Shown piece after piece: positions 438-41,873 of a DNA stretch of 64,000 nt. Each line of letters opens with the position of its first letter. Within the stretch, counting starts at the first letter, position 1. Where the stretch lies: positions 38,005 through 102,004 of the IMG/VR virus record IMGVR_UViG_3300048592_000418, one strand, 5' to 3'. This DNA is from a virus. The notes below the pieces were generated by a model that had not been told where the DNA came from, searched no databases, and saw only the letters and a program-made list of their open reading frames with translations. The translations under genes and the position numbers were made by a program.

Positions 438-455
438 GGAACCATGAATGGTTCC
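438..455. promoter_or_regulatory. 18-bp dyad, copy 1 (GGAACC-ATGAAT-GGTTCC)
   Basis: This is an inverted repeat with 6-bp arms and a 6-bp centre. It follows TTGCAC (421-426) by a spacing that places the dyad centre where a -10 box would fall. It lies in the 79-base gap between the partial first gene and the helicase. The arms and the 18-bp length match ten other copies in the window. In this copy the TTGC is farther from the dyad than in the main group. Confidence 0.7.
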
Positions 456-497
456 GCGACACGAAAAAATCGAATTCAGCGGAGAACCCGCTAACCC

Positions 498-2651
498 ATG
501 ACGACGAACTTAGACGATAAATTCAACCGGCCGGATCCTGTCTTCCGCGCTCCCATTGCGACGGCGCCAGTCTCGAAGGACAAAAACCCGCCGGTCTGGC
601 CGGAGAAATTCCGCGCCGTGCTGTCCGTGCTGAAGTGGGACGAAGAAGATCTGGAAGTCCCGACGAAATACGGTCCGCGGCTGCTGCGGAAGGCATTCCC
701 GACACCGCAGTTTTACGAGCTTTGGCGCGACGAAAAGCCGGCGCTGAAAGAGCTGGGGATCTCGCTCGGACGCAATCCGCGAACGGACGAGTGGGAAGTT
801 TGCCTGTGGCGCGAACTCCCGAAGGAACGCACTGCCGAGCGCGAAGCGGCGAAGGCGGCAAGCCGCGCGACGGATGCCGTGATCGATGTTCCGAAGCCGG
901 ACGGGCTGGAATATCTCGGCTATCAGCGCGCGGGGATCGCGTTTGGCATGCACCGGCCGGCGACGCTGATCGGCGATGAAATGGGACTGGGGAAGACGAT
1001 TCAGGCAATCGGCATCATGAATGTCGACACGGCCGCGAAGCGGATTCTCGTCCTTTGCCCGGCGTCGCTGAAGCTGAACTGGCACCGCGAGCTGACGAAA
1101 TGGCTCGTTCGGAAGCGCATCATTTTCGTCGGCGACTCGAAGGTTTGCCCGGATCTCGCCGACGGGATCGTGATCATCAATTACGACGTGCTGCACAAGC
1201 ACGCGGACTTCCTGCATTCCGTCGTTTGGGACATCGTTGTTGCGGACGAAGCGCACTACCTGAAGAACCGGAAGGCGCGCCGCTCGGAAATGGTTTTCGG
1301 TTACAAGCCGACGAAGAAGGAAGCGTTCAACGGCGCCGTCGAAAAGCCGGCGATTCAGGCGAAGCGGAAGATCTTCCTGACGGGAACGCCGATTGCGAAC
1401 CGCACCGCGGAGCTGTTTCCGATCATTCACTATCTGGATCCGGTTTCATGGCCGACCTTCTTCGGCTACGCGCGGCGCTATTGCGCGGCGACGCAGGGCG
1501 CGCACGGCTGGGACTTTTCCGGCGCGTCGAATCTGGAAGAGCTTCAGGACAAACTTCGGCAAACGATCATGGTTCGCCGGCTGAAAAAAGACGTGCTGAA
1601 GGAACTCCCGCCGAAGCGGCGCCAGATCATCGAAATCCCCGCGGAAAAAGACATGGTTGCGGACATTCGCGCGGAAATGGACGCGTATGATCGCGCCATG
1701 AGCGGCGAGGGGATCGAACAGCTCGAAGTTGAAGCCGAGCTGGCGAAGGCGTCCGACGATCCGGAGGTTTACAAGCGGGCCGTTGAAAAGCTGAAGAAGG
1801 CCGGACAGGCGGCGTTCACGATGATCAGCGCGGTCCGCGCGGCGACGGCGGAGCGCAAGATCCGGATGCAGGCTGTCCGCGATCATCTCGAAGAAGCCGT
1901 TGAGAACAGCGGGAAGGTGATCATTTTCGCGCATCACAAAACCGTCGTTGCCGCGATTCTGGAACAGTTCGGCAACGCGGCCGTGGCAATCGTCGGCGAC
2001 ACGCCGATGAAGGATCGGCAAGACAACGTTGACCGCTTTCAAAAGGATCCGACGTGCAAGGTGATCGTCGGCTCGTTCGGCGCGATGGGAGTCGGGCACA
2101 CGCTGACGGCTTCGAGTCACGTGATCATGGTGGAACTCGACTGGGTTCCCGGCAACGTGACGCAGGCGGAGGATCGCGCGCACCGTATCGGGCAACTGGA
2201 AAACGTGCTCGTGCAACACTTGGTTCTCGAAGGTTCGCTGGACGCGCGGATCGCGAACAAGATCGTCGAAAAGCAGGACATCATTGATCGCGCGCTGGAC
2301 AAAATCACGCTCGCCGCGGCGCCGATCAGCGTTCGGCCGAAGCGGAAGAGCGATGACGCAGCGACGGCCGGCGCGACGCCGGACAAGCTCGCCGAAGTCG
2401 GCGCGAAGCTGACGAACGACCAGATCGCCATGATTCACGAAGGGCTGAAGCGGCTCGCCGGAGTCTGCAACGGCGCCGTGGACTGGGACGGGATGGGTTT
2501 CAGCAAAATCGACACGATGATCGGAAAGTCGCTCGCGTTCTCTGCGTTCCTGTCCCGGAAACAGGCGGCGCTCGGAATGCGCCTGTGCATCAAATACCGC
2601 GGGCAGCTCGGCGACGGCATGATCGCGCGCATCAAAGGGGACATGGTATGA
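498..2651 (+). CDS. SNF2-family DNA helicase/ATPase
   Basis: This is a 717-residue superfamily 2 ATPase of the SNF2 type, which uses ATP to translocate on or remodel DNA. Walker A GDEMGLGKT is at residues 159-167, DEAH at 250-253, and the motif III-like LTGTPIANR follows. The second RecA lobe holds VGHTLTASS and ends in the SNF2 signature HRIGQ at 562-566. Residues of about 620-717 form an extra C-terminal domain with GFSKIDTMIG and a KYRGQL segment, like the tail seen in other phage SNF2 helicases. It heads a run of overlapping genes and overlaps the next gene by ATGA. A role in replication or recombination fork handling is inference. Confidence 0.95.
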   Translation: MTTNLDDKFNRPDPVFRAPIATAPVSKDKNPPVWPEKFRAVLSVLKWDEEDLEVPTKYGPRLLRKAFPTPQFYELWRDEKPALKELGISLGRNPRTDEWEVCLWRELPKERTAEREAAKAASRATDAVIDVPKPDGLEYLGYQRAGIAFGMHRPATLIGDEMGLGKTIQAIGIMNVDTAAKRILVLCPASLKLNWHRELTKWLVRKRIIFVGDSKVCPDLADGIVIINYDVLHKHADFLHSVVWDIVVADEAHYLKNRKARRSEMVFGYKPTKKEAFNGAVEKPAIQAKRKIFLTGTPIANRTAELFPIIHYLDPVSWPTFFGYARRYCAATQGAHGWDFSGASNLEELQDKLRQTIMVRRLKKDVLKELPPKRRQIIEIPAEKDMVADIRAEMDAYDRAMSGEGIEQLEVEAELAKASDDPEVYKRAVEKLKKAGQAAFTMISAVRAATAERKIRMQAVRDHLEEAVENSGKVIIFAHHKTVVAAILEQFGNAAVAIVGDTPMKDRQDNVDRFQKDPTCKVIVGSFGAMGVGHTLTASSHVIMVELDWVPGNVTQAEDRAHRIGQLENVLVQHLVLEGSLDARIANKIVEKQDIIDRALDKITLAAAPISVRPKRKSDDAATAGATPDKLAEVGAKLTNDQIAMIHEGLKRLAGVCNGAVDWDGMGFSKIDTMIGKSLAFSAFLSRKQAALGMRLCIKYRGQLGDGMIARIKGDMV

Positions 2652-3058
2652 CGATCACGGCGGAAATGCAGCGCGCAATTGAACGCGCTCGGCACAACGG
2701 CGGAAAGCTGAAGCGGCTTGTCGGCGGCTACTGGATCGGCGTGAACGATTCGGTTTCCGGCGGACACTTCAGCACGCGCACCGTTGAAGCGCTCGTGTCT
2801 CGCGGAGTCATGATCTACTCGGCGAAGCGCAGCGGCCGGAACGGCGAGTTCCCCGTTGAAGCTACGCTGAAGGAAATCGCGCAGAAGGTGGGCGCCGAGC
2901 CGGTGATCGGAACGCGGCGGGCCGGCGCGGCACGGTTCAGCAAGGGCGCGCGGGAAGCCATTGCCGACTTGCGCGGCGTCACGGACGAGACGCCGGCGCG
3001 AAGCATCGAACGCGAGCCGAAGCGAATCGGGGATTTGCTTCCCGGACTGGACGCATGA
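2648..3058 (+). CDS. Hypothetical protein, possible winged-helix
   Basis: This 136-residue protein starts at an ATG overlapping the helicase stop (ATGA). An upstream in-frame ATG at 2585 would lie inside the helicase gene and is unlikely. The segment GGHFSTRTVEALVSRGVM resembles a recognition-helix and wing pattern found in small phage proteins. Coupling to the helicase suggests co-expression. The function is unknown. Confidence 0.75.
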   Translation: MTITAEMQRAIERARHNGGKLKRLVGGYWIGVNDSVSGGHFSTRTVEALVSRGVMIYSAKRSGRNGEFPVEATLKEIAQKVGAEPVIGTRRAGAARFSKGAREAIADLRGVTDETPARSIEREPKRIGDLLPGLDA

Positions 3059-4222: not shown

Positions 4223-4383
4223 TGGTCGCGATTCGTGAACAGTTCAGTCCGCCGAGCGAAACGCGCCGAGCATGGCGCCGGTTCGTGCAAGCGCTCGCGC
4301 GTTTGTGTTGGCGCCTGAAATTAGGGCTTTACTTGTGCTCACGCTGGAACCATTCATGGTTCCGAATTACGAAACGAAAATGA
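4222..4383 (+). CDS. Small basic hypothetical protein (53 aa)
   Basis: A 53-residue frame is linked to the previous gene by TGATG and to the next by ATGA, which supports it despite its size. It is Arg/Trp-rich. Its 3' third is the dyad element at 4346-4363, so a control site is embedded in the coding sequence. The reading frame could also be incidental. Confidence 0.5.
   Translation: MVAIREQFSPPSETRRAWRRFVQALARLCWRLKLGLYLCSRWNHSWFRITKRK
4346..4363. promoter_or_regulatory. 18-bp dyad, copy 2 (GGAACC-ATTCAT-GGTTCC)
   Basis: The arms and spacing match the other copies. The central hexamer ATTCAT is the exact reverse complement of the centre of copy 1. The start codon of the next gene follows at 4380, 16 bases downstream. 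TTTACT (4328-4333) is a possible -35 box at 18 bp from the centre. The site lies inside the 53-residue frame. Confidence 0.65.
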
Positions 4384-6479
4384 AAACGACACCGATTATC
4401 GCTCAAGTTTGGGCGACAGCGTTCGCCGGCGCGCCGTCAGAATGGCCGGAATGGTTCGCGCTTTGGTATGACACGAACACGCCGATTCCGCGTTGCACGG
4501 AGCCGAGCGCGAACATTCTCGAATCACTCGCGGAAGAATTCCGCGAAGGCGATGAAGCGGCCGGCGAGGTTCGCGCGACATGCCTGAACTGGCAGCGCGA
4601 TCCGTGCTTCGATCTGACGGAATATGATCACGTCGCGAAATGGATCGGTTCGCGTGCGTGGACTGCCGTTCATCAGTGGGAAGACGCTTGGCAAACCTAC
4701 TGGCAGCAAAAGAAGGCTCGCGGCGAGGAAGTCGCTCGCGAAATGTTTTTTCACTGGCGCGAGACATTCGCCAACGAAGCCGTCGCGCGCTTCCTCAAAA
4801 ACGCAAAGCATCCGTCATCATGGCATCATTCGACAAAACGATCCTCATCGGGAATCTCGTCCGGGATCCCGAACTCCGCGTCACGCCGAAAGGCACCCCG
4901 ATCTGTCAGTTCGGGATCGCCATCAATCACACGTATCAGCTCGAAAGTGGAGAAAAGCGCGAAGAAGTCGTCTTTCTCGACTGCGAATGCTGGGGAAAGC
5001 GTGGCGAGACAATCGCGAAATACTTCACGAAAGGAAAACCGATCCTTGTCGAGGGCCGGCACAAGCTCGAACAGTGGGAAGACAAAAACACGAAGCAAAA
5101 GCGCAGCCGGATCAAAATCGTCGTTGAACAGTTCCGCTTCGTTGACTCCGCTCGTTCACGCGAAGACGGCGACGGCGGCGGCGACGAAGACGACGATCAC
5201 CGGACGCCGGCGCGCAGTTCTGGCGGGAGCGCTCCCGGCCGCGGATCAGGCGCGTCTAGACCCGCAAGCAACGAAAATCTCGACGAAGACGTTCCCTTCT
5301 GATCATGGATCCAAACGCAACGACGGTGGAGATCGAAGCGGCGCGCCTGTCGCGGGAACAGTCGCTTCAGATCGGGACGACTCACGACGCGCTGACGCGA
5401 GTCATGCGGGTTCTGGATTGCACGCCGGCGACGGCCGCGGGACTTCTGCGGCAAGCCTTCCTTCGGGACATGGCGAAACCGCCGGCGCAACGGGAAGGGC
5501 TGGCGAACTCGCTCGCGGCCGTGATGGCAGCGCGGTTCCCGCTGCTGATGCGGGACAAAAACGGCCGGCTGACGCTGGCGCGCTGATCCATGAACCCGGA
5601 AGCATGGAAACCGATAAACCCGGAGCCGCCGGGCGAGCCGATGATCGTTCACAAGGGCCGGAGCACGGGGAAAAGCGTGCTGATGGTGGGCGCGAACTTC
5701 GGCAAATCGGAAACGCTGCGGCAGCAAGTCGCGGCGCTGCTGGCAGCGGATCACCGGCTGTTCGTGGTTCCGCAGAACCCGCCGGCGGAAGTGCTCGAAG
5801 CGCTGCGGGCGGAGCGCGCGAGGGAAGCGGAGCACTGGATCTTCCGGGACGAGCTGAAGACGCCGGCGGAAATCCGGGCGCTGCTGGGTCGCGAAGTGGT
5901 GATCGTGGCGCACGAAGCAAACCCGATGATCACGGCGGAAAGCATCCTCGCGGCGAAAGAAAAACTGATGCAGGAACCGCCGGCGTTTCAAAAGATCGTC
6001 GCGGAGCGGATCCCGATCAGCGCGGACACAAACGCAACCGAACCTTGGCCGGAGCCGTCGGACAAGCCGGCGAAACGGCCGCGGGGATTCGCGAAGGCGA
6101 AGGGCTGGAAGGCAAAGCAGCGGGCGAAGCGAAAGGCGCAACGTCGGGCAAGGCAGCGCGCGCGCGGCTGAAGTGGGAATTCGAGGCGCCGCTTTACACC
6201 GGCGACGAACGAGCGCGGGGCGCATGCATCAAAGCGACGGACGCGGCCGGGAAGCTCGTTCACTGGATCCCGCTCGGCGCCTATCCGTCGGACTCGCATC
6301 AGGCGAGCGCGCGCGAAATGGTCCGGCTGCTGAACGACGCGGAAGACATGCGGGCGCCGGTTCCGGAGCTGGAAGGCTCGTTTCCGCTCGTCCTTTACTT
6401 CGGCAGTCAGGCGGACGCGGACGAGTTCACGCGCATCGCGCAGGCGGCACAACCCGGATTGACGGCGAAGCAGCTATGA
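4380..6479 (+). CDS. Hypothetical gene with no stop of its own; frame open to 6479
   Basis: The start at 4380 (ATGA junction, 16 bases after a dyad) opens a frame that reads like protein for about 150 residues (Trp-rich, including WPEWFALWYDT and WRETFANEAVARF). No stop follows before the ssb start at 4820. The frame stays open through ssb and two more genes and ends at 6479, giving a possible 699-residue product. The middle 450 residues are Ser/Arg/Gly/Asp-rich, as in a shadow frame. Only 4380 to about 4830 has convincing coding character for this gene. The last part (6168-6479) is listed separately. A lost stop, a frameshift or a truly nested gene are all possible. Confidence 0.45.
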   Translation: MKTTPIIAQVWATAFAGAPSEWPEWFALWYDTNTPIPRCTEPSANILESLAEEFREGDEAAGEVRATCLNWQRDPCFDLTEYDHVAKWIGSRAWTAVHQWEDAWQTYWQQKKARGEEVAREMFFHWRETFANEAVARFLKNAKHPSSWHHSTKRSSSGISSGIPNSASRRKAPRSVSSGSPSITRISSKVEKSAKKSSFSTANAGESVARQSRNTSRKENRSLSRAGTSSNSGKTKTRSKSAAGSKSSLNSSASLTPLVHAKTATAAATKTTITGRRRAVLAGALPAADQARLDPQATKISTKTFPSDHGSKRNDGGDRSGAPVAGTVASDRDDSRRADASHAGSGLHAGDGRGTSAASLPSGHGETAGATGRAGELARGRDGSAVPAADAGQKRPADAGALIHEPGSMETDKPGAAGRADDRSQGPEHGEKRADGGRELRQIGNAAAASRGAAGSGSPAVRGSAEPAGGSARSAAGGAREGSGALDLPGRAEDAGGNPGAAGSRSGDRGARSKPDDHGGKHPRGERKTDAGTAGVSKDRRGADPDQRGHKRNRTLAGAVGQAGETAAGIREGEGLEGKAAGEAKGATSGKAARARLKWEFEAPLYTGDERARGACIKATDAAGKLVHWIPLGAYPSDSHQASAREMVRLLNDAEDMRAPVPELEGSFPLVLYFGSQADADEFTRIAQAAQPGLTAKQL
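4820..5302 (+). CDS. ssb: Single-stranded DNA-binding protein
   Basis: A protein of 160 residues with the bacterial SSB OB-fold. The N-terminus MASFDKTILIGNLVRDPELR and the core (GKPILVEGRHKLEQWED) are diagnostic. A Gly/Asp-rich linker leads to the acidic tip DEDVPF, the usual tail that recruits replication and repair proteins. It coats ssDNA during phage replication and recombination. It sits behind the SNF2 helicase cluster. The start at 4820 matches the usual SSB N-terminus, so upstream in-frame ATGs are not used. Confidence 0.97.
   Translation: MASFDKTILIGNLVRDPELRVTPKGTPICQFGIAINHTYQLESGEKREEVVFLDCECWGKRGETIAKYFTKGKPILVEGRHKLEQWEDKNTKQKRSRIKIVVEQFRFVDSARSREDGDGGGDEDDDHRTPARSSGGSAPGRGSGASRPASNENLDEDVPF
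5305..5586 (+). CDS. Hypothetical protein
   Basis: 93 residues, two bases after the ssb stop. Helical, with a short motif LDCTPATAAGLLRQAF that could be an HTH-like helix pair. The function is unknown; co-transcription with ssb is likely. Confidence 0.7.
   Translation: MDPNATTVEIEAARLSREQSLQIGTTHDALTRVMRVLDCTPATAAGLLRQAFLRDMAKPPAQREGLANSLAAVMAARFPLLMRDKNGRLTLAR
5590..6171 (+). CDS. Hypothetical protein with basic C-terminal tail
   Basis: A protein of 193 residues. The N-terminus holds GRSTGKS, similar to but shorter than a Walker A motif, followed by an alpha/beta-like region (VVIVAHEANP). The last 35 residues are almost entirely Arg, Lys, Ala and Gln, as in a nucleic-acid-binding tail. It ends at TGA 6169-6171, overlapped by a CTG that seems to start the next gene. 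The function is unknown. Confidence 0.75.
   Translation: MNPEAWKPINPEPPGEPMIVHKGRSTGKSVLMVGANFGKSETLRQQVAALLAADHRLFVVPQNPPAEVLEALRAERAREAEHWIFRDELKTPAEIRALLGREVVIVAHEANPMITAESILAAKEKLMQEPPAFQKIVAERIPISADTNATEPWPEPSDKPAKRPRGFAKAKGWKAKQRAKRKAQRRARQRARG
6168..6479 (+). CDS. Hypothetical protein with apparent CTG start
   Basis: About 103 residues (KWEFEAPLYTG and on to GLTAKQL) with normal codon use, but no ATG, GTG or TTG at the front. The CTG at 6168 overlaps the preceding TGA as CTGA, exactly where other junctions show ATGA or GTGA, so it is probably the start or a mutated ATG. The same frame is continuous with the stopless frame from 4380. The segment LYFGSQADADEFTRIAQ is the most protein-like part. 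The family is unknown. Confidence 0.6.
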   Translation: MKWEFEAPLYTGDERARGACIKATDAAGKLVHWIPLGAYPSDSHQASAREMVRLLNDAEDMRAPVPELEGSFPLVLYFGSQADADEFTRIAQAAQPGLTAKQL

Positions 6480-8009: not shown

Positions 8010-8228
8010 ATGAACACAATCGCAAAGCAGCTTGTCGCGGACATGGGCGCCGCGTTGATCGGCCGTGAGATTCACACGATTCCGTTCGGCGCATATCCCG
8101 GCGGAGTCGCGAAGGTGACGGAGCTGACGCCGGATCCGCAGGCGCCGGAAATCGTCATGCAAGTCGAACACCCGACGTTCGGATCCATCGGCGTGTTCGA
8201 GGACGAACCCGTTGAACTCGCTTCATGA
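8010..8228 (+). CDS. Small beta-rich protein
   Basis: 72 residues, starting at ATG 8010 just after the previous stop. The alternation of small and hydrophobic residues (REIHTIPFGAYPGG, GVAKVTELTPDP) suggests a small SH3-like barrel. The function is unknown. Confidence 0.7.
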   Translation: MNTIAKQLVADMGAALIGREIHTIPFGAYPGGVAKVTELTPDPQAPEIVMQVEHPTFGSIGVFEDEPVELAS

Positions 8229-9142
8229 AGTCTGAAACGGGCGGGAAGAAGGTCGCGGAATTCGTTTTCGCATACAAGGGACCGGAGACGCAGCGCGCGC
8301 CGGAAGGCGAGCACGCGGAACCCGATGAAGACAGGAAGCCGCTTCCGCTCGTCCGCGATCAGAAATGCCGGATCGCCGTTTACGTCGTCTCGAAGCTGAA
8401 GGAAACGGATTCGCCACCCCATGAAACCGGCGAGTCATATTTCCGTCTGGAATGCGACGCGCCGAAGATGCGGCTCGAAGGAACGGACATCGAACTTTTG
8501 AGGAAGGAAGCGTTCGGCCGGTGCAATGAGCATTACGCGACGAAATGGGAACCCTACTTCATCGTTGAAGTTCGGCGCATCGGATTCTCGAACGGCTACG
8601 GGACGGATCTGGATTTTTGCTATCGCGAATGCTGGAAGGGAACCGCGCATGACGGGACGCTTTTACTGAAGGATCGCCACTGGGGAGAGCGTGACGAAAA
8701 GATCAGCGCATGGCCGGGCGAATTCCGGGACCGCGAAGGCAAGGTGATCGCGTGCATCCCGAAGACGCCGGCGAACAAGGTCGCGCTGGAACAGTTCACC
8801 GCGAAGATTGATCAGATTCGCGGCGCGCTCGCCGACATGCTGCGGCCGGAACTGATCATGCATACGCTTTTGAATCAGAATCAGCTCGCGCTTCGCGCGC
8901 CGAAGACGGCGCCGGCCGAATACGTGACGCACGCGCCAGTTCCGAACGAGATCACGGAGGAAATGATCGCACAGGTGACGGAGGCGATCCGCACTTCGGG
9001 GAAGGCGCACATTCACACGGCATTCGTTCAGCGGCGTTTGAAAATCGGATGGCTGCGCGGTCAGCGCGTGATTGAAGAGCTGAAGAAGCGATCCATTCTC
9101 GGCGACGAAACAGCGGCCGGTTTTATTATTCTTGCATCATGA
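8225..9142 (+). CDS. Protein with C-terminal FtsK-gamma-like winged helix
   Basis: A protein of 305 residues. Residues of about 245-300 (QRRLKIGWLRGQRVIEELKKR) closely resemble the gamma winged-helix domain of FtsK, which reads oriented chromosomal repeats. No ATPase motor motif is visible. The N-terminal 200 residues contain a charged region and an aromatic region (WEPYFIVEVRR) of unknown fold. The gamma-like domain would bind DNA by sequence; what the rest does is unknown. Coupled to the next gene by ATGA. Confidence 0.75.
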   Translation: MKSETGGKKVAEFVFAYKGPETQRAPEGEHAEPDEDRKPLPLVRDQKCRIAVYVVSKLKETDSPPHETGESYFRLECDAPKMRLEGTDIELLRKEAFGRCNEHYATKWEPYFIVEVRRIGFSNGYGTDLDFCYRECWKGTAHDGTLLLKDRHWGERDEKISAWPGEFRDREGKVIACIPKTPANKVALEQFTAKIDQIRGALADMLRPELIMHTLLNQNQLALRAPKTAPAEYVTHAPVPNEITEEMIAQVTEAIRTSGKAHIHTAFVQRRLKIGWLRGQRVIEELKKRSILGDETAAGFIILAS

Positions 9143-9701: not shown

Positions 9702-10182
9702 TCGCTTTCTCGAAATCCACGAAGCGGAGCTGAACGCGAAGACGGCCGCGGAGCTGAAGCGGGACGCATGGGCCGGCGACGCGCTGCTTCGCGCGGCCGT
9801 CACGATTATCGTGATCGCGCTCGAACCGAAGGACGCGCAGCGGCGGAACTGGATCGTTTGCCAAGCCGTGAGCAATGAACACATGGCGATTTGTTGCCGC
9901 TCGTTCATGCCGCGCTCGCCGGCGGGACTGAAGCAGAGCACGGCGTAAAACCGCTATCGCGAAGACGTTCACCGACACGGGACGCGGCTCGAAGCGGCTG
10001 TGCTTTACGAATACCGGCGCCGCGGCGGGGCGGAACACGGCGGCATCACGGCCGCGATTGAGATTGCGCGATTCCTGATCTCGAAGACGTGCTTTGCCCG
10101 GACGAACGAAGCGGTAACTGTCCCGATTGACAACACGGCTTTGGCTGCTCTGACTGCCGTGCATGACGCCGAAACGAGCTGA
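9661..10182 (+). pseudogene. RNase III-like gene interrupted by an in-frame TAA
   Basis: The frame from ATG 9661 (or 9670) has an RNase III-like pattern: DAWAGDALLRAAV followed by QAVSNEHMAICC. It meets TAA at 9946-9948. The same frame continues without a gap as NRYREDVHRHGTRLEAAVLY to TGA 10180-10182. The GT-x-LEA segment resembles the second catalytic block of RNase III-type domains. Together the two parts make a plausible 170-residue domain. Some expected acidic residues are replaced, so activity is doubtful. It may be a pseudogene, a readthrough product, or a sequencing error. It overlaps the next gene by 20 bases. Confidence 0.55.
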
Positions 10183-10801
10183 CGGAATTCCAGTCCACTG
10201 CGCGCACTCGAAGCTGGTTGAGATCGGCACGTTAAAGCCGCATCCGAAGAATCCCAACACACATCCCGAGCGGCAAGTGAAGTTGCTCGCGAAGGTGATC
10301 AAGCTGAACGGATGGCGTCGCGCCATCGTCGTGTCAGACCGGAGCGGATACATCGTGAAGGGACACGGCACGCTGATGGCCGCGCAGCTCGCGAAGCTGA
10401 AGGAAGTCCCCGTTGACGTTCAGCACTACGAAGACGACGAAGCGGAGATCCGCGATCTGATCGCCGACAACCGGATCCCGGAATTGTCCTATCGTGAAAA
10501 CCGCAGTGTCGTCGCGCTGCTTCAGCAGCTCGAAGCGAAGGGACAGGACATCGAATCGGCCGGCTACGCGAACGACGAACTTCAGGCATTGATCGCGACG
10601 CTCGAAGCGAACGTGACGGACGGCGCGCAACGCGCGGGCCGGCGCACGCACAACGAAGCGGACACGATGCTAGTTCTCGGACCGTATCGCGTGAAGATCC
10701 CGCGGGCGGATTTCGCGAGCTGGCACGAAAAGATCCGTCAGCAAGTCGGCTTCAAAGCTGAAGACGTTCACGCGGAAATCCGGCGCCGGCTGTCCCTCTG
10801 A
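10163..10801 (+). CDS. ParB-like nuclease-domain protein
   Basis: A protein of 212 residues with a ParB/Srx N-terminal fold. Residues 20-110 contain HPKNPNTHPERQVKLLAK, then GHG at 67-69 in VKGHGTLMAAQL, which corresponds to the nucleotide-binding box of ParB (G-x-R/H-R). The region around NRIPELSYRE is also typical. In phages such proteins often lie beside DNA methyltransferases, as here. No canonical ParB HTH is apparent. DNA or CTP binding is inferred from the family. Confidence 0.88.
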   Translation: MTPKRADGIPVHCAHSKLVEIGTLKPHPKNPNTHPERQVKLLAKVIKLNGWRRAIVVSDRSGYIVKGHGTLMAAQLAKLKEVPVDVQHYEDDEAEIRDLIADNRIPELSYRENRSVVALLQQLEAKGQDIESAGYANDELQALIATLEANVTDGAQRAGRRTHNEADTMLVLGPYRVKIPRADFASWHEKIRQQVGFKAEDVHAEIRRRLSL

Positions 10802-12327
10802 TGAAGCTCGTTCCCGTCAAACTGCTGACGCCGGCGGCATACAATCCGCGCGTCGTTGATCCCGAACGGCTGGCAATGGTCCGGCTGTCGCTGCGGAAGC
10901 TGGGCTGGCTTCTTCCCGTGTTCGCGACGGAGGAAGGCGAGATCCTGAGTGGGCATCAGCGCACGCACGAAGCCGCGGCGCTCGGATACACGCAAGTTCC
11001 CGTTCGGCCGCTCCCACCCATGGCGACGGGGAAGCTGAAGGCGCTGAACATCCTGTTCAATCGTTCCACGAACGACATGGACATTGACGCCGTTCCGGCG
11101 GAGCTGAAGGCGCGCATTTCCGCGGAGGACGTGCGCAAGCTCGCCGCGGCGCTCCCGGATCACCCGATCAGCTCGTTCCCGTGCATGCACGCAAACCGGG
11201 TGGAGATCGGGCCGCTCGTGAAGGCGAACGCCGGCCGCTGGATTCCCTACGCATACACGGTCGCGAAGTCGCTCGCCGCGCAGGGGATCACGATGCCGTT
11301 GATCGTGGGGCCGGATGACGTGGTGATCAACGGCATCGGCCGGTTGCAAATGCTCGCCGAGCGGAAGGAAGAAACGGCGGAAGCGATTTACCTGCGCGCG
11401 GAGCAAGCGGAGTTCGCGCGGCTGATGCTGAACTTCCTTTCGATGGATTTCGACCTGAAGGCGAAATATGCGGATCTTCTGCGTTACGGCAGTTTTCGCC
11501 GGCTGCGGCGGCAGCGCACCGAACTGGGACGCGGCTTCGTCTTCGCGATCACCGGGAACCGGGCCGCGCGTCATTTCGACATCACGGACGCGGCATCGCG
11601 CGAGCGCTGGATCGCCGAGCACGGCCGCAACGTGCTGGACTTCGGCGCCGGACACCTGACGGAAACGAACCTGCTTCGCGCCGTTGGCGTGGAATGCACG
11701 CCGTTCGAGCCGTATCGCGTGAACCCGGACCGGGAGGAAATCGACAAGGCGGAATCGCTGCGCGTCGTCCGCGAATTCCTCGCCGCAGTGGAGAGCAAGC
11801 GCGAGTTCAGCAGCATCTTCATCAGCTCCGTCCTGAACTCCGTTCCGTTCGAGGAAGATCGGCGCGCCATCGTGACGATTCTGCGCGCATGCGCCGGCCG
11901 GCGGACGAAGGTTTACGCCGTCGCCAGCAGCGATCAGCAACGCGGGTTGAAAAACATGGGGAAGAAGTTCCTGAATCAGCGTTCGGAGCAATACGGCTTC
12001 ATGCTCGCGGGTTACGAACCGAACGTGATCGTCGGCGAGCTGGCGACGAAGCCGAAAGCGCAGAAATACCACACGCCGGACGAGTTCCACGCGCTGTTCC
12101 GGACCGGATTCGGCCGCGTGTCCGTGAAGTATGACGGGGAAGGCGGCGCGAACATCAGCGCGATTGCCTGCGACCCGATGCCGTTCCGCTCGAAGGCCGA
12201 TTTCGCGCAGCTCGCCGCGGCGCTGGCGTTCGAGTTTGATCTTCCATACCCGGACGGCTCGCGCATGGGCATGGCGGAGGAAGCGAAGGCGGCGTTCGGC
12301 GAACGGCTGGGGCAGATCATCGCATGA
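10801..12327 (+). CDS. ParB-domain / methyltransferase-like fusion protein
   Basis: A protein of 508 residues. The first 80 form a ParB-like domain with SGHQR at 50-54. A second, weaker ParB-like block lies near 140-190 (NGIGR at 177-181). Residues of about 275-400 look like a Rossmann SAM-binding fold: DFGAGH at 280-285 as motif I, PFEPYRVN as the strand-2 acidic position, and VLNSVPFEEDRRAIV as the strand-4 region. The last part lacks an obvious DNA-methylase NPPY box. The fusion suggests a DNA- or nucleotide-linked modification, but the substrate is unknown. TGATG links it to the previous ParB gene. Confidence 0.8.
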   Translation: MKLVPVKLLTPAAYNPRVVDPERLAMVRLSLRKLGWLLPVFATEEGEILSGHQRTHEAAALGYTQVPVRPLPPMATGKLKALNILFNRSTNDMDIDAVPAELKARISAEDVRKLAAALPDHPISSFPCMHANRVEIGPLVKANAGRWIPYAYTVAKSLAAQGITMPLIVGPDDVVINGIGRLQMLAERKEETAEAIYLRAEQAEFARLMLNFLSMDFDLKAKYADLLRYGSFRRLRRQRTELGRGFVFAITGNRAARHFDITDAASRERWIAEHGRNVLDFGAGHLTETNLLRAVGVECTPFEPYRVNPDREEIDKAESLRVVREFLAAVESKREFSSIFISSVLNSVPFEEDRRAIVTILRACAGRRTKVYAVASSDQQRGLKNMGKKFLNQRSEQYGFMLAGYEPNVIVGELATKPKAQKYHTPDEFHALFRTGFGRVSVKYDGEGGANISAIACDPMPFRSKADFAQLAAALAFEFDLPYPDGSRMGMAEEAKAAFGERLGQIIA

Positions 12328-14156: not shown

Positions 14157-14852
14157 ATGGCCGAAGAAGCGACAGTAAAACCGCCGATTGAACTGACGGC
14201 CGCGCAGGCGCGCACCGTCCTGAAGGCGAATCGCGCCAACATCCCGAAGCACACGGCCGCGCTGCTGTCCAAGGTCGCGCGGAACAAACCCCTGACGGAC
14301 CGCGAGCGCGGACTGTTGGAAGGCGTTATTGTGAACGCAGAACGGAAACGGCGCGAGGGACAAAACGGGACAAAACGGCGCGCAGGCGCGGACAGAATGG
14401 GCCGGACGGAGCGGGATTTTGCCGTCGCTGTGCGTCGCCGGCGCGTTCTCGAATGCCGGATGCGCATGCTTCCCGTCCGGGACATCGCCGCAGAGCTGGG
14501 AATCGACAAAAAGACCGTCTGCGCGGATCTGAAGGCGCTGGAAAAGGAGTTCGCAGCGTTCGCGCCGACGGAGAACCGGGCGTTGCTCGCACAGCAGATC
14601 GCGCAAATGGACATCCTGATCGGCGAAAACACGGCGATGGCCGCGAAGTTCACGGCGCCGTCGGCGAAGGCGGCGTTCCTGCGCAACGCAGCGCAGGCGA
14701 TGCAGGACAAGACGCGGCTGCTGGAAAACGTCGGCGTGATCAAAGTCGTCCCGAAGGTGATTCACGCGGCCGGGCCGAACGACGGGCCGATCCCCATCGA
14801 AACGACGGCGAAGATCGTGCTTCTGCCGGCGCTGGAAGAAGGGAAGCAGTGA
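14157..14852 (+). CDS. Helix-turn-helix protein, candidate small terminase or regulator
   Basis: A protein of 231 residues. A clear HTH lies near 100-135 (MLPVRDIAAELGIDKKTVC). The N-terminus is basic and the C-terminal half helical, with a beta-like end. The architecture (HTH, helical oligomerisation region, tail) fits a small terminase, although it sits about 6 kb before the large terminase, where one would expect neighbours. It could equally be a regulator, including of the dispersed dyads. Confidence 0.6.
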   Translation: MAEEATVKPPIELTAAQARTVLKANRANIPKHTAALLSKVARNKPLTDRERGLLEGVIVNAERKRREGQNGTKRRAGADRMGRTERDFAVAVRRRRVLECRMRMLPVRDIAAELGIDKKTVCADLKALEKEFAAFAPTENRALLAQQIAQMDILIGENTAMAAKFTAPSAKAAFLRNAAQAMQDKTRLLENVGVIKVVPKVIHAAGPNDGPIPIETTAKIVLLPALEEGKQ

Positions 14853-15124
14853 GCGGGATCAACGCCATGATTGACCGGGCGTGCGGCGTGACGCCGGAAA
14901 TGCGGTCGCAATGGGCGCGCGACGCTGCGGCGCCGAAAATCGTGCTCGCGTGCCAGCGTTGCGGCGCGGAGAAATCGACGACACGGGATCCGGTTTGGCC
15001 GAAGTCTGCGGCGTTCTGTTTGTTCCCGTGCTCGGACTGCATTACGCGCGAGGAACGGCGGAATCTGATTCTGGCGCCGCTGGAATTTTTCGACGCGCTC
15101 GGCGTGCGGATCCCGTTTCCATGA
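14849..15124 (+). CDS. Zinc-finger hypothetical protein
   Basis: 91 residues from GTG 14849 (GTGA junction), or shorter from an internal ATG. CQRCGAE and CSDCI form a CxxC...CxxC pair. The function is unknown. Confidence 0.65.
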   Translation: MSGINAMIDRACGVTPEMRSQWARDAAAPKIVLACQRCGAEKSTTRDPVWPKSAAFCLFPCSDCITREERRNLILAPLEFFDALGVRIPFP

Positions 15125-15303
15125 ACCAAAAACGGTTCAACCCGATGCGGTTTGCCGTTGCATGCGCGGCGCTTGGCGCTTTGCTGGCGCTCGTCTTCTT
15201 CACTTGCTGCGGCGAACGCCTGTGCGCATGGCTGACCGATTGGATCGATCTGCGCATTGATCGCGTTGGCCGATGGCTGAACAACGAACCCAAACGAAAA
15301 TGA
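15121..15303 (+). CDS. Small membrane protein
   Basis: 60 residues with one strong transmembrane segment (FAVACAALGALLALVFFTCC), flanked by basic residues, and an amphipathic C-terminus. ATGA junctions on both sides. It could be a spanin-like or other inner-membrane peptide; the function is unknown. Confidence 0.65.
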   Translation: MNQKRFNPMRFAVACAALGALLALVFFTCCGERLCAWLTDWIDLRIDRVGRWLNNEPKRK

Positions 15304-17045
15304 ACGGAATGCACATCGACACGAGGCGCGAGGGATTTCAGATGACGCGCGAACGCCGGCGCTCGAACGCGGAATGGCCGGCATGGCTGAACGCAGCATG
15401 GAACACCCCGATTGACGAACCGGGCGCGGTTTACCCGGACCCGAATGATCCGGATCGCTCGAACGGGCGCGTTTGCGTCAATGTCCACCCGGACGGCTGT
15501 TCGCGGCAGATAGTCGAATGGAACGAATGGATCATTCGCGAGGCTGACGGCCGGCTGTGGGTGACGGACAGCAGCGATCCGACGATTGCGAACATCGAAA
15601 TCGCGGCCGGTCAGGAGCTGAAGCAAGAGCGGCGCGCATACATCGCCGAGAAATTGCTTCAAACGGCGCCGGAATTGGCCGCTGAACTGGACACGCTCCG
15701 CGCCGAGTTGGCCGAAGCAAAATCGAATTACATCGGCGCATGCCAGACAATCGCGGCGATGCATGCCGCGGCCGTGGGTGGAATTCGGGGACCGAACCGC
15801 GGCGTCGTTGAAGACGTGGCAGACGTTGCCGAGCGGCTTCGCTTGCTCGAACTCTCGCGCACCGATCCCGAAAAAAGTCTCGCCGCGCACGCGATCCAGT
15901 TGAACGCGACGCTGCGCAAGACGCAGGAAGAACTTCAGACCGCGAACGCGCTGCTGGACGGGCTGAAACGGCCGAACCCGGCGGCAATCGATCAAGTCGT
16001 GGAACGGCTTTGGGGGAAGGCTGGCACGAACACGCCGGACACATTCCGGGATGAAGCGCGGCGGATCCTGCGCGAGCACTTCGGCGAGTTCGGCACGAAT
16101 GATCGCGCCGAGCTGGAAAAGCTCCGCGGCTACTATCGCCAGATCGGCGCGACGCTCGGCGATGACGCAGTGATCAGCCGAGTCCGGGCACAGGCGGACA
16201 CGATCAACCGGCTGCGCATGGAGCTTTCCGCGCTCGAAACGCTGAAGACGGACACTGAAGCGCACGCGGACAGGCTGGCGTCTGCGCTCGGATGGCTCGC
16301 GAGCACGTGCGGGACGCAGGTTCCGGCCGTGGTGGACGCGCTGCGAGCGCACGCCATGCGACGCGGCGCCGATTTTCAGGACGCCGGGCCGATCCAGTCG
16401 CCGGCGCTGATTCCCGCGCGAAAGCTCCCGGAGGGAACGGCGTTGCTGTATCCGGGCGTTCATCAGGTTCGCGGCGTTATCTGCGCGCGTGACGTGATCG
16501 TGACGCCGGCGAAGATTCCGGACCGGACGAAGCTCGTGATCTTCGATGGCGTGCTTTTCCACGTCTGGCAGGCGTTCGCGACGGACGCCGGGACTGTGCT
16601 GCTCGCGGCGCCGGATTCTGCCGTGATGGAAACGGACGACGAAGCGGACGCAGCGGAGGCAATGCGGCTCGCGGGAATGGCTGCGACGGATGAACACGTG
16701 ATCGCGCGGCTGCGCGCGTTCCCGCGTCCGCGGCACGTCGGCATTCAGCCGAAGCCGCTCCCGACGCATCCGGTTGACGCGATGAAGGCGATCGGCATTC
16801 CCATGGATCCGGACGTGGAACGCGATCTTCGTGCGCACTGCGACGCACCTGTTGACGTTTCGGCGATGGACGGCGGGCCGAAGCGAATCGGCGACGTGCT
16901 CGAACAGTGCGGCCGGGAACACGCGGAGGCGATGCAGCGGATTGAAATTCAGCGCGCGCAGTTGAACCCGAACCCGCCGGCGGAACTGGCTCGGCAGGCG
17001 ATGGCGAAAGCGCGCGATATAGTCAGCGAAGGGAATCACCCATGA
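15300..17045 (+). CDS. Large hypothetical protein with coiled coil
   Basis: A protein of 581 residues. The start is at ATGA 15300; an ATG at 15273 lies inside the previous gene. The N-terminus carries WIIREADGRLWVTD, a motif seen at the front of many phage accessory proteins. Residues 115-350 are long helices with heptad-like Leu/Glu patterning. The C-terminal third is mixed and ends in a short helical segment. I do not recognise a catalytic site. It is the largest gene of the 13-20 kb region, but its role is unknown. Confidence 0.75.
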   Translation: MNGMHIDTRREGFQMTRERRRSNAEWPAWLNAAWNTPIDEPGAVYPDPNDPDRSNGRVCVNVHPDGCSRQIVEWNEWIIREADGRLWVTDSSDPTIANIEIAAGQELKQERRAYIAEKLLQTAPELAAELDTLRAELAEAKSNYIGACQTIAAMHAAAVGGIRGPNRGVVEDVADVAERLRLLELSRTDPEKSLAAHAIQLNATLRKTQEELQTANALLDGLKRPNPAAIDQVVERLWGKAGTNTPDTFRDEARRILREHFGEFGTNDRAELEKLRGYYRQIGATLGDDAVISRVRAQADTINRLRMELSALETLKTDTEAHADRLASALGWLASTCGTQVPAVVDALRAHAMRRGADFQDAGPIQSPALIPARKLPEGTALLYPGVHQVRGVICARDVIVTPAKIPDRTKLVIFDGVLFHVWQAFATDAGTVLLAAPDSAVMETDDEADAAEAMRLAGMAATDEHVIARLRAFPRPRHVGIQPKPLPTHPVDAMKAIGIPMDPDVERDLRAHCDAPVDVSAMDGGPKRIGDVLEQCGREHAEAMQRIEIQRAQLNPNPPAELARQAMAKARDIVSEGNHP

Positions 17046-19340: not shown

Positions 19341-19380
19341 AAAAAGTGCTTGCAAAGGAACCAAACATGGTTCCTAGTGC
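19341..19380 (+). promoter_or_regulatory. Promoter-operator element, copy 3 (dyad 19357-19374)
   Basis: An A-rich run (AAAAAGTG) is followed by CTTGC, AAA, the dyad GGAACC-AAACAT-GGTTCC and TAGTG. TTGCAA reads as a -35 box, and CCTAGT after 17 bases is a possible -10. The ATG of the next gene is at 19403. The arrangement is nearly identical in eight other places. The dyad likely binds a dimeric regulator. Confidence 0.78.
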
Positions 19381-19993: not shown

Positions 19994-20033
19994 AAAAATG
20001 TCTTGCAAAGGAACCAAACATGGTTCCTACTGT
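19992..20033 (+). promoter_or_regulatory. Promoter-operator element, copy 4 (dyad 20010-20027)
   Basis: GAAAAAATGT, then CTTGC, AAA and the dyad with centre AAACAT, then TACTGTG. The ATG of the next gene lies at 20041, 13 bases after the dyad. If transcription starts 6-8 bases beyond a CCTACT -10 box, the mRNA would have almost no leader. Confidence 0.78.
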
Positions 20034-20040: not shown

Positions 20041-20445
20041 ATGAACACGAACACGACGCAGGGAACCCGGATCGCGGAAGCCTTCGTGATTGAAGGCGAT
20101 CTTTACGCAGGCGTGAACGGCTGGGGCGAGCCGTTCGAGACGTTCAACGCTCAAGTCGGCGTCACGACGGCGGACGGCCGCAAGCTCGTCCATCGCGAAT
20201 TTTGCGCCGTCGGCGTCGTTCACACGGATGAAGGCGATTTCGTCGCTCCGTCTCGCCGTCGCGCTCGCGCTTTCGCGGATCGCGTTGCTGCGGCCGGCGT
20301 GATCGATGAAGCGCGCTGGGAACCGATGGAAGAACCGGAAGCGCTCGAAGTGCGGCTTCATCGTGAATTTCTGCGCGAGGAAGCGGAGCGTCACGGCACG
20401 CAGCCGGCCGGCGCCGCGGCTTATGCTCGCATGCTGGCGCGGTGA
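20041..20445 (+). CDS. Hypothetical protein with MNTNT start
   Basis: 134 residues, starting at ATG 20041 with MNTNTTQG, one of several cassette proteins that begin with Thr/Asn repeats. N-terminal half beta-rich (GVTTADGRKLVHREF), C-terminal half helical. The function is unknown. Confidence 0.75.
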   Translation: MNTNTTQGTRIAEAFVIEGDLYAGVNGWGEPFETFNAQVGVTTADGRKLVHREFCAVGVVHTDEGDFVAPSRRRARAFADRVAAAGVIDEARWEPMEEPEALEVRLHREFLREEAERHGTQPAGAAAYARMLAR

Positions 20446-22341: not shown

Positions 22342-22355
22342 ACCGCTTCCCGAAA

Positions 22356-26612: not shown

Positions 26613-27283
26613 TCCGAGTTTTTCAGCAAGTTATCGACAAGAAAAACGGCGATTGCTGGCGCGCGTGCATCGCTTCGATTCTCGAAATGAAGGCGGACGA
26701 CGTGCCGAACTTCGTCGGACTCGCGGGGAAGAAGTTCGGCGAGGATCCGCACGCGCTCGCGCTCGAATGGCTGCGCGCTCGCGGCGTCGCGTTGCTCGAA
26801 TGTCACGGCCGCGATCCGAAGGACGCGTTCAACTGGCGAATGCTTCCCGGCGTGTTCTGCATCCTTTCCGTTCCATCGCAGAAGTTCCCGAAGGAATGCA
26901 CGCATGCCGTGGTGGGGCAATGGCGCGAACATCCGGAAAACCCGGATTGCACGCAGATCGTGATCGTTCACGATCCGAATCCGGGGAACGTGCCTTATCC
27001 GGTGGACGTGAAGATCAACGGGATCACGTATCTCGTCCCGATGCGGCCGAAGCTCGGACAGCGAATCGACGCGATGCTTCCCGACGGGAAATCCCCATAC
27101 AGCGCGAAGCGCGAGCCGGAACACGGCCGGGCGGCGGAAATACTCGCCGCGGCCGGAGTTCAAAGCAGCTCGCACAGAGGGAAAATTCCCACGAAAACAG
27201 AGGGCGGAAGCAGTGACAGCAAAAGCGCATGCCATAACAAACCCGCGAGCGTGAAACCGGGGCCGAAAAAAACCCGAAAATAG
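26609..27283 (+). CDS. Papain-like (C39-type) protein, third paralogue
   Basis: 224 residues from the ATGA junction at 26609. The core has NGDCWRACIASILEM (Cys), CTHAVVGQW (His) and VIVHDPNPG (Asp). The C-terminal 60 residues are an extra Lys/Ser-rich low-complexity tail not found in the other two. It ends at TAG 27281-27283 inside the A-rich front of the next promoter-operator element. Family is confident; role in the phage is unknown. Confidence 0.72.
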   Translation: MIRVFQQVIDKKNGDCWRACIASILEMKADDVPNFVGLAGKKFGEDPHALALEWLRARGVALLECHGRDPKDAFNWRMLPGVFCILSVPSQKFPKECTHAVVGQWREHPENPDCTQIVIVHDPNPGNVPYPVDVKINGITYLVPMRPKLGQRIDAMLPDGKSPYSAKREPEHGRAAEILAAAGVQSSSHRGKIPTKTEGGSSDSKSACHNKPASVKPGPKKTRK

Positions 27284-27317
27284 TGCTTGCAAAGGAACCA
27301 AACATGGTTCCTAGTGT
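27273..27317 (+). promoter_or_regulatory. Promoter-operator element, copy 5 (dyad 27294-27311)
   Basis: CGAAAATAGTG, CTTGC, AAA, dyad with AAACAT centre, TAGTGTTCG. The stop codon of the preceding gene is the TAG of the A-rich front. The ATG of the next gene is at 27325, 13 bases after the dyad. It starts the first operator-headed cassette of the island. Confidence 0.8.
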
Positions 27318-27324
27318 TCGCACG

Positions 27325-27678
27325 ATGACGACAACGACGAACACGAACCGGGAAACGCAAATCGCGCAGGCGAACGAAATCGCGCGCCAGATCGGCAATC
27401 GCGCCTTCTTCATGATGGGAGCGAAGAACCTGATGGCGACGGAGCACGAAGGGAAAGCGGCGCTGACGTTCAAGATCGCGCGCAATGACAACGGCGTGAC
27501 GCACGTCCGCGTTGTTCTGGAACCCTCGGACACTTACACCGTGCAATTCCTGAAGGTCCGCAATCCGAGCGCGCGCAGCGCTGGCGGGATCTTCACCGTC
27601 TCGGAAGCTGACATGGTTTACTCGGACAGCCTGAACACCTGCATCGAAGCGCACACCGGCTTGCGCCTTTCGCTGTGA
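27325..27678 (+). CDS. Hypothetical protein with MTTTTNTN start
   Basis: 117 residues, starting at ATG 27325. Thr/Asn-rich first residues as in other cassette leaders, then a mixed fold (KAALTFKIARND, TYTVQFLKVRNP). GTGA overlap with the next gene. A starts-in-the-operator frame (27283) is not used. The function is unknown. Confidence 0.75.
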   Translation: MTTTTNTNRETQIAQANEIARQIGNRAFFMMGAKNLMATEHEGKAALTFKIARNDNGVTHVRVVLEPSDTYTVQFLKVRNPSARSAGGIFTVSEADMVYSDSLNTCIEAHTGLRLSL

Positions 27679-28792: not shown

Positions 28793-28826
28793 CGCTTGCA
28801 AAGGAACCAAACATGGTTCCTAGTGT
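28783..28826 (+). promoter_or_regulatory. Promoter-operator element, copy 6 (dyad 28803-28820)
   Basis: CAAAATAGCG, CTTGC, AAA, dyad with AAACAT centre, TAGTGTTCG. The next ATG is 45 bases beyond the dyad (28866), and the leader between is built from repeated ACGAA/CGAACAC units. It heads a six-gene cassette. Confidence 0.8.
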
Positions 28827-30616: not shown

Positions 30617-30945
30617 AATCGCCGCGCATGCTCGAAATCGAAGCTCGCCGGAACGAGCTGACGGCCGCGGCGGACGCACGGCGCGAGCAAGCCGGGCCGG
30701 ACATGCGCGGACTTCTGCCGACGGCGCATGACTGGATGACGCCGGCGGAACGCTGGGAAGATCACGCGCTCGCGCTCGAAGCCGTCGCGCTCGAACGTGG
30801 ATGGTGGGGAATTCCGGCGGAGCGAATCGCGCTGAAACGGCAGCTCCGCGCGGCCGGCGCAACCTTCGAGCTGGACGCACCGATCCGCGTGCTCCGCGAA
30901 ATTCTCGACAATAGTGCTTGCGTCGGAACCAAACATGGTTCCTAA
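30613..30945 (+). CDS. Hypothetical protein ending inside the operator
   Basis: 110 residues from the ATGA junction. Helical, with WWGIPAERIALKRQLRAAG. The coding sequence runs through the next dyad and stops at TAA 30943-30945, one base after it, so the last residues are encoded by the operator. The function is unknown. Confidence 0.65.
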   Translation: MKSPRMLEIEARRNELTAAADARREQAGPDMRGLLPTAHDWMTPAERWEDHALALEAVALERGWWGIPAERIALKRQLRAAGATFELDAPIRVLREILDNSACVGTKHGS

Positions 30946-34207: not shown

Positions 34208-34247
34208 AAATAGATCTTGCGCGGGAACCATGTTTGGTTCCTAGTCC
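34205..34247 (+). promoter_or_regulatory. Promoter-operator element, copy 8 (dyad 34224-34241)
   Basis: TGAAAATAGAT, CTTGC, GCG, dyad with centre ATGTTT, TAGTCCG. The centre is the reverse complement of the common AAACAT while the arms and TTGC keep their orientation. The next ATG is at 34253, only 11 bases after the dyad. Confidence 0.78.
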
Positions 34248-36447: not shown

Positions 36448-36487
36448 AAATAGATCTTGCAAAGGAACCAAACATGGTTCCCAGTGT
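36446..36487 (+). promoter_or_regulatory. Promoter-operator element, copy 9 (dyad 36464-36481)
   Basis: GAAAATAGAT, CTTGC, AAA, dyad with AAACAT centre, then CAGTG, one base different from TAGTG. The next ATG is 13 bases away at 36495. Confidence 0.8.
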
Positions 36488-36494
36488 TGGAACG

Positions 36495-39431: not shown

Positions 39432-39434
39432 GGC

Positions 39435-39480
39435 GCGAAAAAAAGTGCTTGCACTGGGAACCAAAAAGGGTTCCAGTGCT
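39435..39480 (+). promoter_or_regulatory. Promoter-operator element, copy 10, divergent (dyad 39457-39474)
   Basis: GCGAAAAAAAGTG, CTTGC, ACTG, then GGAACC-AAAAAG-GGTTCC and CAGTG. The arms are intact but the centre differs and the TTGC-to-dyad spacing is one base longer. The next ATG is 12 bases away at 39487. Confidence 0.72.
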
Positions 39481-39486
39481 CGCACG

Positions 39487-40322: not shown

Positions 40323-40326
40323 ATTT

Positions 40327-40806: not shown

Positions 40807-41789
40807 TCCCCGCATACATCCGAGTTTTCATCCTGCGTCCCGGCGAGCTGATGGACGCCAGCAAGCGGCCGGCGGACGAACCGCGGCCGAACGAGATCAC
40901 AATGATCGGCGATCATGAACACGACGGCTTCGCGATGGTGGAGAGCGACGGCCGCGCGATCTACTCCGTCGAACGCGGAATTCGGCTGAAGGACGAATGG
41001 AAGGGGAAGGCGCGCGTGACGGCGCTCGAACAGATCCAGATCGATCTTTTCGGCCGGCTCGCGGAAACGCTGCTGTGCATCGAATCCGTGACGGAGCTTC
41101 CGGACGCGGCGCTTTTGCACGCGGACGGATCGGATCCGTTTTGGCTTCACAGCACGCTTTCGGAATGCGGCTGGGACTTGCTGTCCGATGCCGATCTTCA
41201 GGCGATTCACGAAGACGCGGCGAAGCTGATCGCGCATGAAGCCGCGCAAGCGCTCGAACGCGCCGGCCGCGCTCCCGATGAAATGCGCGCGCGAATCGAC
41301 GCGCAAACGAACATCACCGTTTCATGGCCGTGCTTCTTTACCGTTGAAACGTCGCGCGACTGGGAAACGAGTCACACGGACATCGAAGCGATCAACTACG
41401 CCGGCGCCGCGACACTCGTGAACGCTGACATCGCTGGACAGCTCGCCGCGGCCGAAATCGCGCACAAGGCCGTTGCGCACACGCTCGGCGCAATCTGCGA
41501 CGATCCGCGGAAGTTTTACCTGATGGGACCGCTGACCGGCTCGCGCGAAACGCTGCTGAAGGCATGGGCCGCGAAGCACGGGAAGACGGAAGACGAAGCG
41601 GATGAATTCTGGCAGGTTCATGATCGCGAGCGATACAAGCGGCATTGCTCGGAAATCGAACTGTGCGAACAACTGCTTCAGGCGTATCGTGACGGCCGGA
41701 TCGGCATGCCGGAACACGAAGCGCGCGCCGTCGGCTTCAGCGAAGAAGCGGCGGCACGACTCGCCGCGGTTCACGAAAAAAGGCGCTGA
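40803..41789 (+). CDS. Hypothetical protein
   Basis: 328 residues. A beta-rich N-terminus (YIRVFILRPGELMD), a long helical middle and a C-terminal segment with WAAKHGKTEDEADEFW. The largest intact island gene. The function is unknown. Confidence 0.72.
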   Translation: MIPAYIRVFILRPGELMDASKRPADEPRPNEITMIGDHEHDGFAMVESDGRAIYSVERGIRLKDEWKGKARVTALEQIQIDLFGRLAETLLCIESVTELPDAALLHADGSDPFWLHSTLSECGWDLLSDADLQAIHEDAAKLIAHEAAQALERAGRAPDEMRARIDAQTNITVSWPCFFTVETSRDWETSHTDIEAINYAGAATLVNADIAGQLAAAEIAHKAVAHTLGAICDDPRKFYLMGPLTGSRETLLKAWAAKHGKTEDEADEFWQVHDRERYKRHCSEIELCEQLLQAYRDGRIGMPEHEARAVGFSEEAAARLAAVHEKRR

Positions 41790-41829
41790 ACCCATGTCGA
41801 AACGGCGGAAATCCGGGACTGCATTTTCC

Positions 41830-41873
41830 CGAAAAAAAGTGCTTGCAAAGGAACCAAACATGGTTCCTAGTGC
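41830..41873 (+). promoter_or_regulatory. Promoter-operator element, copy 11 (dyad 41850-41867)
   Basis: CGAAAAAAAGTG, CTTGC, AAA, dyad with AAACAT centre, TAGTG. The next ATG is 10 bases after the dyad at 41878. It heads the last island cassette, which ends at the hairpin near 42700. A small frame from ATG 41794 reads through the element and is probably not used. Confidence 0.8.

Follow-up and report, generated by a model that had tools for sequence, protein, structure and literature searches.

What do many copies of one inverted repeat do in a single phage, each of them placed just before a gene? The question is raised by a 64,000-nucleotide stretch of DNA (the window; positions 38,005 to 102,004 of the 102,004-base virus record IMGVR_UViG_3300048592_000418) in which the 18-bp dyad GGAACC-N6-GGTTCC occurs eleven times. 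The original prediction, made from the letters of the window, described these copies as a phage-wide operator system bound by a dimer. Here, we find that every copy lies in the core of one promoter-like module, and we regard it as fairly probable that the dyads are operators of one dimeric, sequence-specific DNA-binding protein, most likely serving coordinated repression. Counts refer to the window or to the whole record, as stated; positions are those of the window unless marked as record positions or prefixed L016 or L017 (other parts of the record).

Results

All eleven predicted window positions carry the dyad (11/11), and both 6-bp arms are perfect in each copy, as had been claimed. A chance origin is rejected, given that an order-3 Markov model expects 0.014 exact dyads per 64 kb and that shuffled sequence holds far fewer matches than observed. 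When two or fewer mismatches are allowed, the count of matches rises to 22, compared with 2.6 ± 1.7 for dinucleotide-shuffled sequence (shuffle maximum 8), which is not the random-like occurrence that the original prediction had set as the test against itself. No GGAACC/GGTTCC pair is found at any other gap between 0 and 15, nor is there a pair in the reversed arm arrangement at a 6-bp gap, and no other 6-N6-6 dyad in the record comes near GGAACC in number. The rest of the record adds three copies (record positions 20571, 24676 and 37106; L017:1071, 5176 and 17606), which brings the record total to 14. The invariant arm is in fact 7 bp long, GGAACCA-N4-TGGTTCC, in 13/14 copies, leaving a free centre of 4 bp; the copy at 39457 is the only one with 6-bp arms. 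In an alignment of the sites all arm positions reach 2.0 bits, in contrast to the variable flanks and centre. The centres listed earlier for the window hold (AAACAT seven times; ATGTTT, ATGAAT and ATTCAT once each), although the list left out the eleventh, AAAAAG at 39457.

The dyads span approximately 20.6–79.9 kb of the 102-kb record. The structural and tail region (window ~42.2–64 kb plus record 0–8.6 kb) has none, and "phage-wide" is thus too broad a term. Each copy does stand just before a gene, with the start of the open reading frame (ORF) 10–45 bp downstream of the dyad.

A predicted composite element surrounds 14/14 copies and consists of an A-rich tract, CTTGCA/CTTGCG or CTTTAC as the -35, the dyad, a short leader and an ATG, and all 14 point towards the next gene. 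The A-rich stretch often holds the stop codon of the preceding gene. A representative promoter is found at 27269–27330 (+ strand), where an A-rich tract is followed by CTTGCA (-35), the dyad in the spacer, TAGTGT (-10) and a near-leaderless ATG; a module of this kind is found around every copy in the commoner of two registers (repeat families D1 and D2). In this register I (11/14 copies), counted from the C of CTT, the dyad begins 8–9 bp downstream, and a TAGTGT-like hexamer comes immediately after it. With TTGCAN read as the -35 and that hexamer as the -10, the predicted spacer is 19 bp and is filled by the dyad. In register II (3/14; 438, 4346 and record position 37106) the dyad begins 18–19 bp after CTT, that is, 10–11 bp further downstream, and its centre overlies the -10 expected at a spacing of 17–18 bp. 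The two registers fall on about the same face of the DNA, one turn apart, and the arms stay constant when centre and register change. At record position 24676 and at 39457 the distance from the -35 to the dyad grows by 1 bp, but the 19-bp spacing to the -10-like hexamer (CATTGT and CAGTGC, respectively) is kept; operator and promoter are therefore separable.

When a matrix of the -35 module was run over both strands of the whole record, its top 14 matches were exactly the 14 dyad sites. The lowest of these scores 16.6 bits and the next match, inside a gene, 14.0 bits. Thus, the promoter is never dyad-free, and the scan returned no promoter module without a dyad in the record. We take the CTTGC/CTTTAC and TAGTGT-like hexamers to be real -35 and -10 elements, in which case several register I promoters would start almost at the ATG and give near-leaderless messages. 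The ATG inside AAACATGG is in frame in ~6/9 AAACAT copies, but it was not accepted as a true start because a single inherited spacing accounts for three of the in-frame cases and no start codon is present there in other copies. Shine–Dalgarno motifs are nearly absent from the record (21/113 genes, compared with 10/113 in the control); many leaders carry ACGAAACGAACACGAA instead, which either precedes the ATG or makes up the opening codons (MTTTNTN).

Two degenerate sites support the two-register scheme at the sequence level. A copy at L016:8713, TGAACCAAACACGGTTCC, has one mismatch and is intergenic, before an Erf-like annealing gene, and a single half-site GGAACC at L017:8465 lies 19 bp after CTTTAC, before the gene at L017:8488; both have register II geometry. 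The copy at L016:8713 belongs to a cluster of degenerate dyad and half-site sequences (8713, 8739 and 8812) where the Erf-like gene begins (L016:8713–8830). Within a coding region, 15122–15139 holds TGAACC-N6-GGTTCA, a perfect dyad with both outer bases symmetrically changed, which could be chance or a coding relic.

All eleven window dyads are on the + strand. The first two are in register II: 438–455 (centre ATGAAT) has a candidate -35 CTTGCA at 420–425 and precedes an SNF2-type helicase gene (498–2651), and 4346–4363 (centre ATTCAT) has a candidate -35 CTTTAC at 4327–4332 and precedes an ORF from the ATG at 4380. The other nine are in register I, seven of them with the centre AAACAT: 19357–19374 (CTTGCA 19349–19354, -10-like TAGTGC 19375–19380), 20010–20027 (CTTGCA 20002–20007, TACTGT), 27294–27311 (CTTGCA 27286–27291, TAGTGT 27312–27317, ATG 27325), 28803–28820 (CTTGCA 28795–28800, TAGTGT, ATG 28866), 30925–30942 (CTTGCG 30917–30922, TAACTG), 36464–36481 (CTTGCA 36456–36461, CAGTGT) and 41850–41867 (CTTGCA 41842–41847, TAGTGC), the last being the final dyad before the capsid and tail genes. 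At 34224–34241 the centre ATGTTT is the reverse complement of the common one (CTTGCG 34216–34221, TAGTCC). The dyad at 39457–39474 (centre AAAAAG) is displaced by 1 bp, with CTTGCA at 39448–39453, CAGTGC as the -10-like hexamer and the -35/-10 distance unchanged. Downstream of the copy at 20010 lie an ORF at 20041–20445 and the gene for the terminase large subunit (20926–22341).

The particle is of the siphophage type, with a portal protein at 22296–24023 and a major head protein at 44125–45108 in addition to the terminase. Between the terminase and portal genes and the major head protein gene (20926–44125) lie ~20 kb of small orphan genes, which bear most of the dyads. All called genes are on one strand. 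Both ends of the record are in the tail-gene region, which suggests that it is probably close to complete, with a small part possibly missing.

Profile searches of the record gave no match for integrase, HTH_3, S24, RHH_1 or sigma region 4, and none for MerR (PF13411) at E ≤ 1 although controls were detected; a host MerR is possible. Among ~100 proteins scanned with Pfam, no repressor is among the matches listed (25/31 families for part of them). The combination known from lambda-type immunity, a cI/Cro-like helix-turn-helix (HTH) or S24 repressor together with an integrase, is not found in the record. A position-matrix scan for HTH motifs in all ORFs of both strands, with shuffled controls, singled out only 14157–14852 (+ strand) as both above the controls and plausible. 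This 231-residue protein has the only convincing HTH of the record, at residues ~92–135; a UvrD-type helicase ORF reached the same score, which was taken as chance. No sequence homologue was found for it. An alignment-free structure model gives a local HTH fold, with weak matches that include response-regulator HTHs and small terminase. On this model the protein is a possible regulator, or equally a terminase small subunit, and its link to the dyads is putative. Of the three HTH proteins that had been suggested as binders, the one at 14157 does have a recognizable HTH, whereas those at 31264 and 33487 have no family match. The gene at L017:8805, second in the unit begun by L017:8488, is HTH-like by eye only, and its alignment-free structure model is too poor for use (mean predicted local distance difference test score 56). 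The binder may be an unrecognized phage protein or a host factor, possibly of a family missed by hidden Markov models.

Two adjacent ParB_N-domain proteins are encoded at 10163–12327, the second fused to a methyltransferase. They were rejected as binders, having ParB_N and methyltransferase domains and no HTH family match (10163 and 10801). The second protein (10801) is related (34–44%) to proteins of Gordonia phage Evaa and Pseudomonas phage SM1. Outside the window, L016:9695–9710 reads TGTTCCACGTGGAACA and agrees at every position with the general consensus of chromosomal parS sites, TGTTNCACGTGNAACA; it is intergenic, 32 bp before an SbcC-like gene, and the only copy in the record. Judging from this match, the phage may recruit the host ParB. 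Elsewhere, 4380–6479, 15273–17045 and L017:5725–7671 encode large proteins (590–700 residues) with no Pfam or PHROG match, and the C-terminal domain of the protein encoded at 8225–9142 resembles FtsK gamma, with a score just below the Pfam cut-off.

In the phage collection no DNA-level relative is present, protein relatives are below 60% identity, and the relatives found through capsid, portal and helicase are dyad-free or distant. Viral contigs that bear the dyad hold one copy each, in 40/40 records of a scan with 7-bp arms and 8/8 of an earlier scan. No multi-copy record is among the matches listed for viral contigs, with either exact or looser dyad and promoter patterns, and the strict promoter/operator composite is absent from 84,980 species genomes.

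Dispersed operators at the promoters of one phage have a precedent in the C1 operators of P1, which are likewise many; those are asymmetric, however, and belong to a temperate phage with a known repressor. The original prediction pointed to the L5 stoperators, but these are not the closest parallel. Stoperators of L5 and other cluster A phages are asymmetric 13-mers to which a monomer binds; they follow the direction of transcription, and many of them lie in intergenic positions, where they stop elongation (PMC9283540). They share dispersal over a phage genome with the dyads here, which are perfectly symmetric, lie only in promoter cores and show nothing of a 13-bp asymmetric oriented site.

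Much closer is the cluster O mycobacteriophage Corndog, with 34 copies of a 17-bp palindrome, TGTTCGG-N3-CCGAACA, whose AAA/TTT centres occur in both orientations and whose function is unknown (PMC4351075). Both phages have many dispersed dyads with 7-bp invariant arms and a variable centre in either orientation, and Corndog also has a ParB-like domain protein and predicted leaderless promoters (PMC4351075). Its palindromes differ in sequence, have a 3-bp centre, lie inside genes in about one-third of cases and are not described as embedded in core promoters (PMC4351075), unlike the phage here, where 14/14 dyads lie in promoter-like cores in two fixed registers. Homology to the Corndog palindromes cannot be claimed; they are the nearest parallel.

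In SPbeta, the 15-bp SPBRE element occurs at ~10 prophage promoters and is bound by MrpR, a protein with a tyrosine-recombinase fold and not a classical HTH repressor; repeat analysis had revealed the element long before its binder was known (PMC10516654). It resembles the dyads as a repeated element at promoters, but SPbeta is temperate and its binder is known, whereas the phage here gave no integrase-family match. The SAS and ESAS repeats of cluster K phages immediately precede start codons, and some of them contain inverted repeats (PMC3203893). SAS is asymmetric with a proposed role in translation, and the arms of ESAS are 17 bp long and imperfect, with a spacer that varies (PMC3203893).

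Discussion

The number of sites, their invariance, their exact spacing, their strict linkage to one promoter-like module and the two registers are direct observations. What is new is that each copy is strictly embedded in a core promoter, with two registers that differ by one turn of the DNA. As in lambda-type systems, the sites are symmetric and overlap predicted core promoter elements. We favor an arrangement in which ~14 near-identical phage promoters, read by the host RNA polymerase, would carry the dyad in the promoter core, so that a dimer would sit in the -35/-10 spacer at 11 copies and one DNA turn downstream, over the -10, at the other 3. Bound at either place, it would occupy the DNA to which RNA polymerase must bind and so exclude the polymerase, which makes repression the most likely effect. 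Many small operons would then be repressed coordinately, with repression released or imposed together during infection. Small shifts of the dyad are tolerated by repression, and overlap with the spacer or the -10 is the classical place of a repressor. Binding by a dimer and a repressive effect are what we infer; of the operator system originally proposed, a symmetric DNA-bound protein at promoters is supported, whereas a phage regulator as the binder and repression itself are putative.

Several results weigh against this reading. Profile searches with HTH_3, MerR, S24, RHH_1, integrase and sigma region 4 did not identify the binder, and the lack of an integrase, together with the placing of all called genes on a single strand, makes a lysogeny repressor unexpected. 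Neither the viral contigs nor the genome collection yielded a relative with the same sites to show conservation. Finally, at 19 bp the spacer exceeds what would be expected of a sigma-70 promoter working without help, and an activator would suit it equally well.

Such an activator, of the MerR kind, is the strongest alternative, if a rather unlikely one: a dimer on the 7-4-7 palindrome would distort a weak promoter with a 19-bp spacer for opening by RNA polymerase and drive an early-to-middle switch. MerR-type promoters tolerate little register change, and in the mer promoter the palindrome centre is ~2 bp further from the -10 than the dyad centre here, which counts against this reading. Register I geometry equals the published MerR signal of 7-bp half-sites, a 4-bp centre and a 19-bp spacer (PMC1526738), and 11/14 sites have a palindrome within a 19–20-bp -35/-10 spacer. 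However, the register to both hexamers is not fixed, the dyad being shifted by 1 bp in two promoters (record position 24676 and 39457) and by 10–11 bp in three (438, 4346 and record position 37106). In addition, MerR-family promoters share the palindrome and spacer (PMC1526738), whereas here 14 such promoters occur in one phage whose record has no MerR domain.

It is more doubtful still that the dyads are sites of a host-encoded regulator, such as a stress or SOS repressor, used by the phage to time or silence its genes. The lack of a recognizable phage-encoded binder would agree with this, and we take the half-site GAAC to resemble LexA half-sites of some phyla, a likeness of the half-site only and a lead. 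However, the strict composite is missing from the species genomes, and a phage that seems to be lytic would not usually carry as many as 14 sites for a factor of its host. About equally improbable is one unrecognized dimeric regulator, a DNA-binding protein of a new kind, that would switch transcription both ways from one operator by activating the long-spacer promoters through distortion when bound in the spacer and repressing others when bound over the -10.

An RNA element, in which the 7-bp stem and 4-nt loop would act in read-through transcripts as a processing or stability hairpin, is very unlikely. All copies are intergenic and on the coding strand, and the predicted transcript folds at -8 to -9 kcal/mol, a modest stability. 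However, the seven stem pairs are invariant across the nine aligned register I sites, no compensatory base changes occur in the stem, and the outer flanks of an extended stem pair no better than shuffled sequence. An Rfam search gave no match, and the tight coupling to the -35 spacing would be left unexplained. Transcription from the predicted promoters, if these are genuine, would also begin at the dyad or downstream of it. The earlier preference for a DNA-bound dimer over an RNA hairpin is borne out by the invariant arms, the centres in both orientations, the lack of covariation and the promoter-like module at every copy. A symmetric dimer fits, as far as the sequence tells, arms that are kept while register, flanks and centre change. 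Least likely of all are recently duplicated promoter cassettes with no separate role for the dyad, as flanks are alike over 59–86 bp among several copies but register II and shifted copies share the arms alone, with different flanks and centre, and the arms remain 100% identical while flank identity drops to 60–70%.

Dispersed palindromes are known in a few phages, where as a rule nothing hints at their mode of action. Here, copies tied to promoters make the choice between blocking and activating directly testable, given 14 natural variants that include displacements of 1 bp and of one turn. The phage has no recognizable repressor, sigma region 4 protein or integrase in searches of its record, and the binder, once found, would probably bring to light a family of regulators missed by current profile libraries. 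It would also help to explain how many small operons are coordinated in a large phage coded on a single strand.

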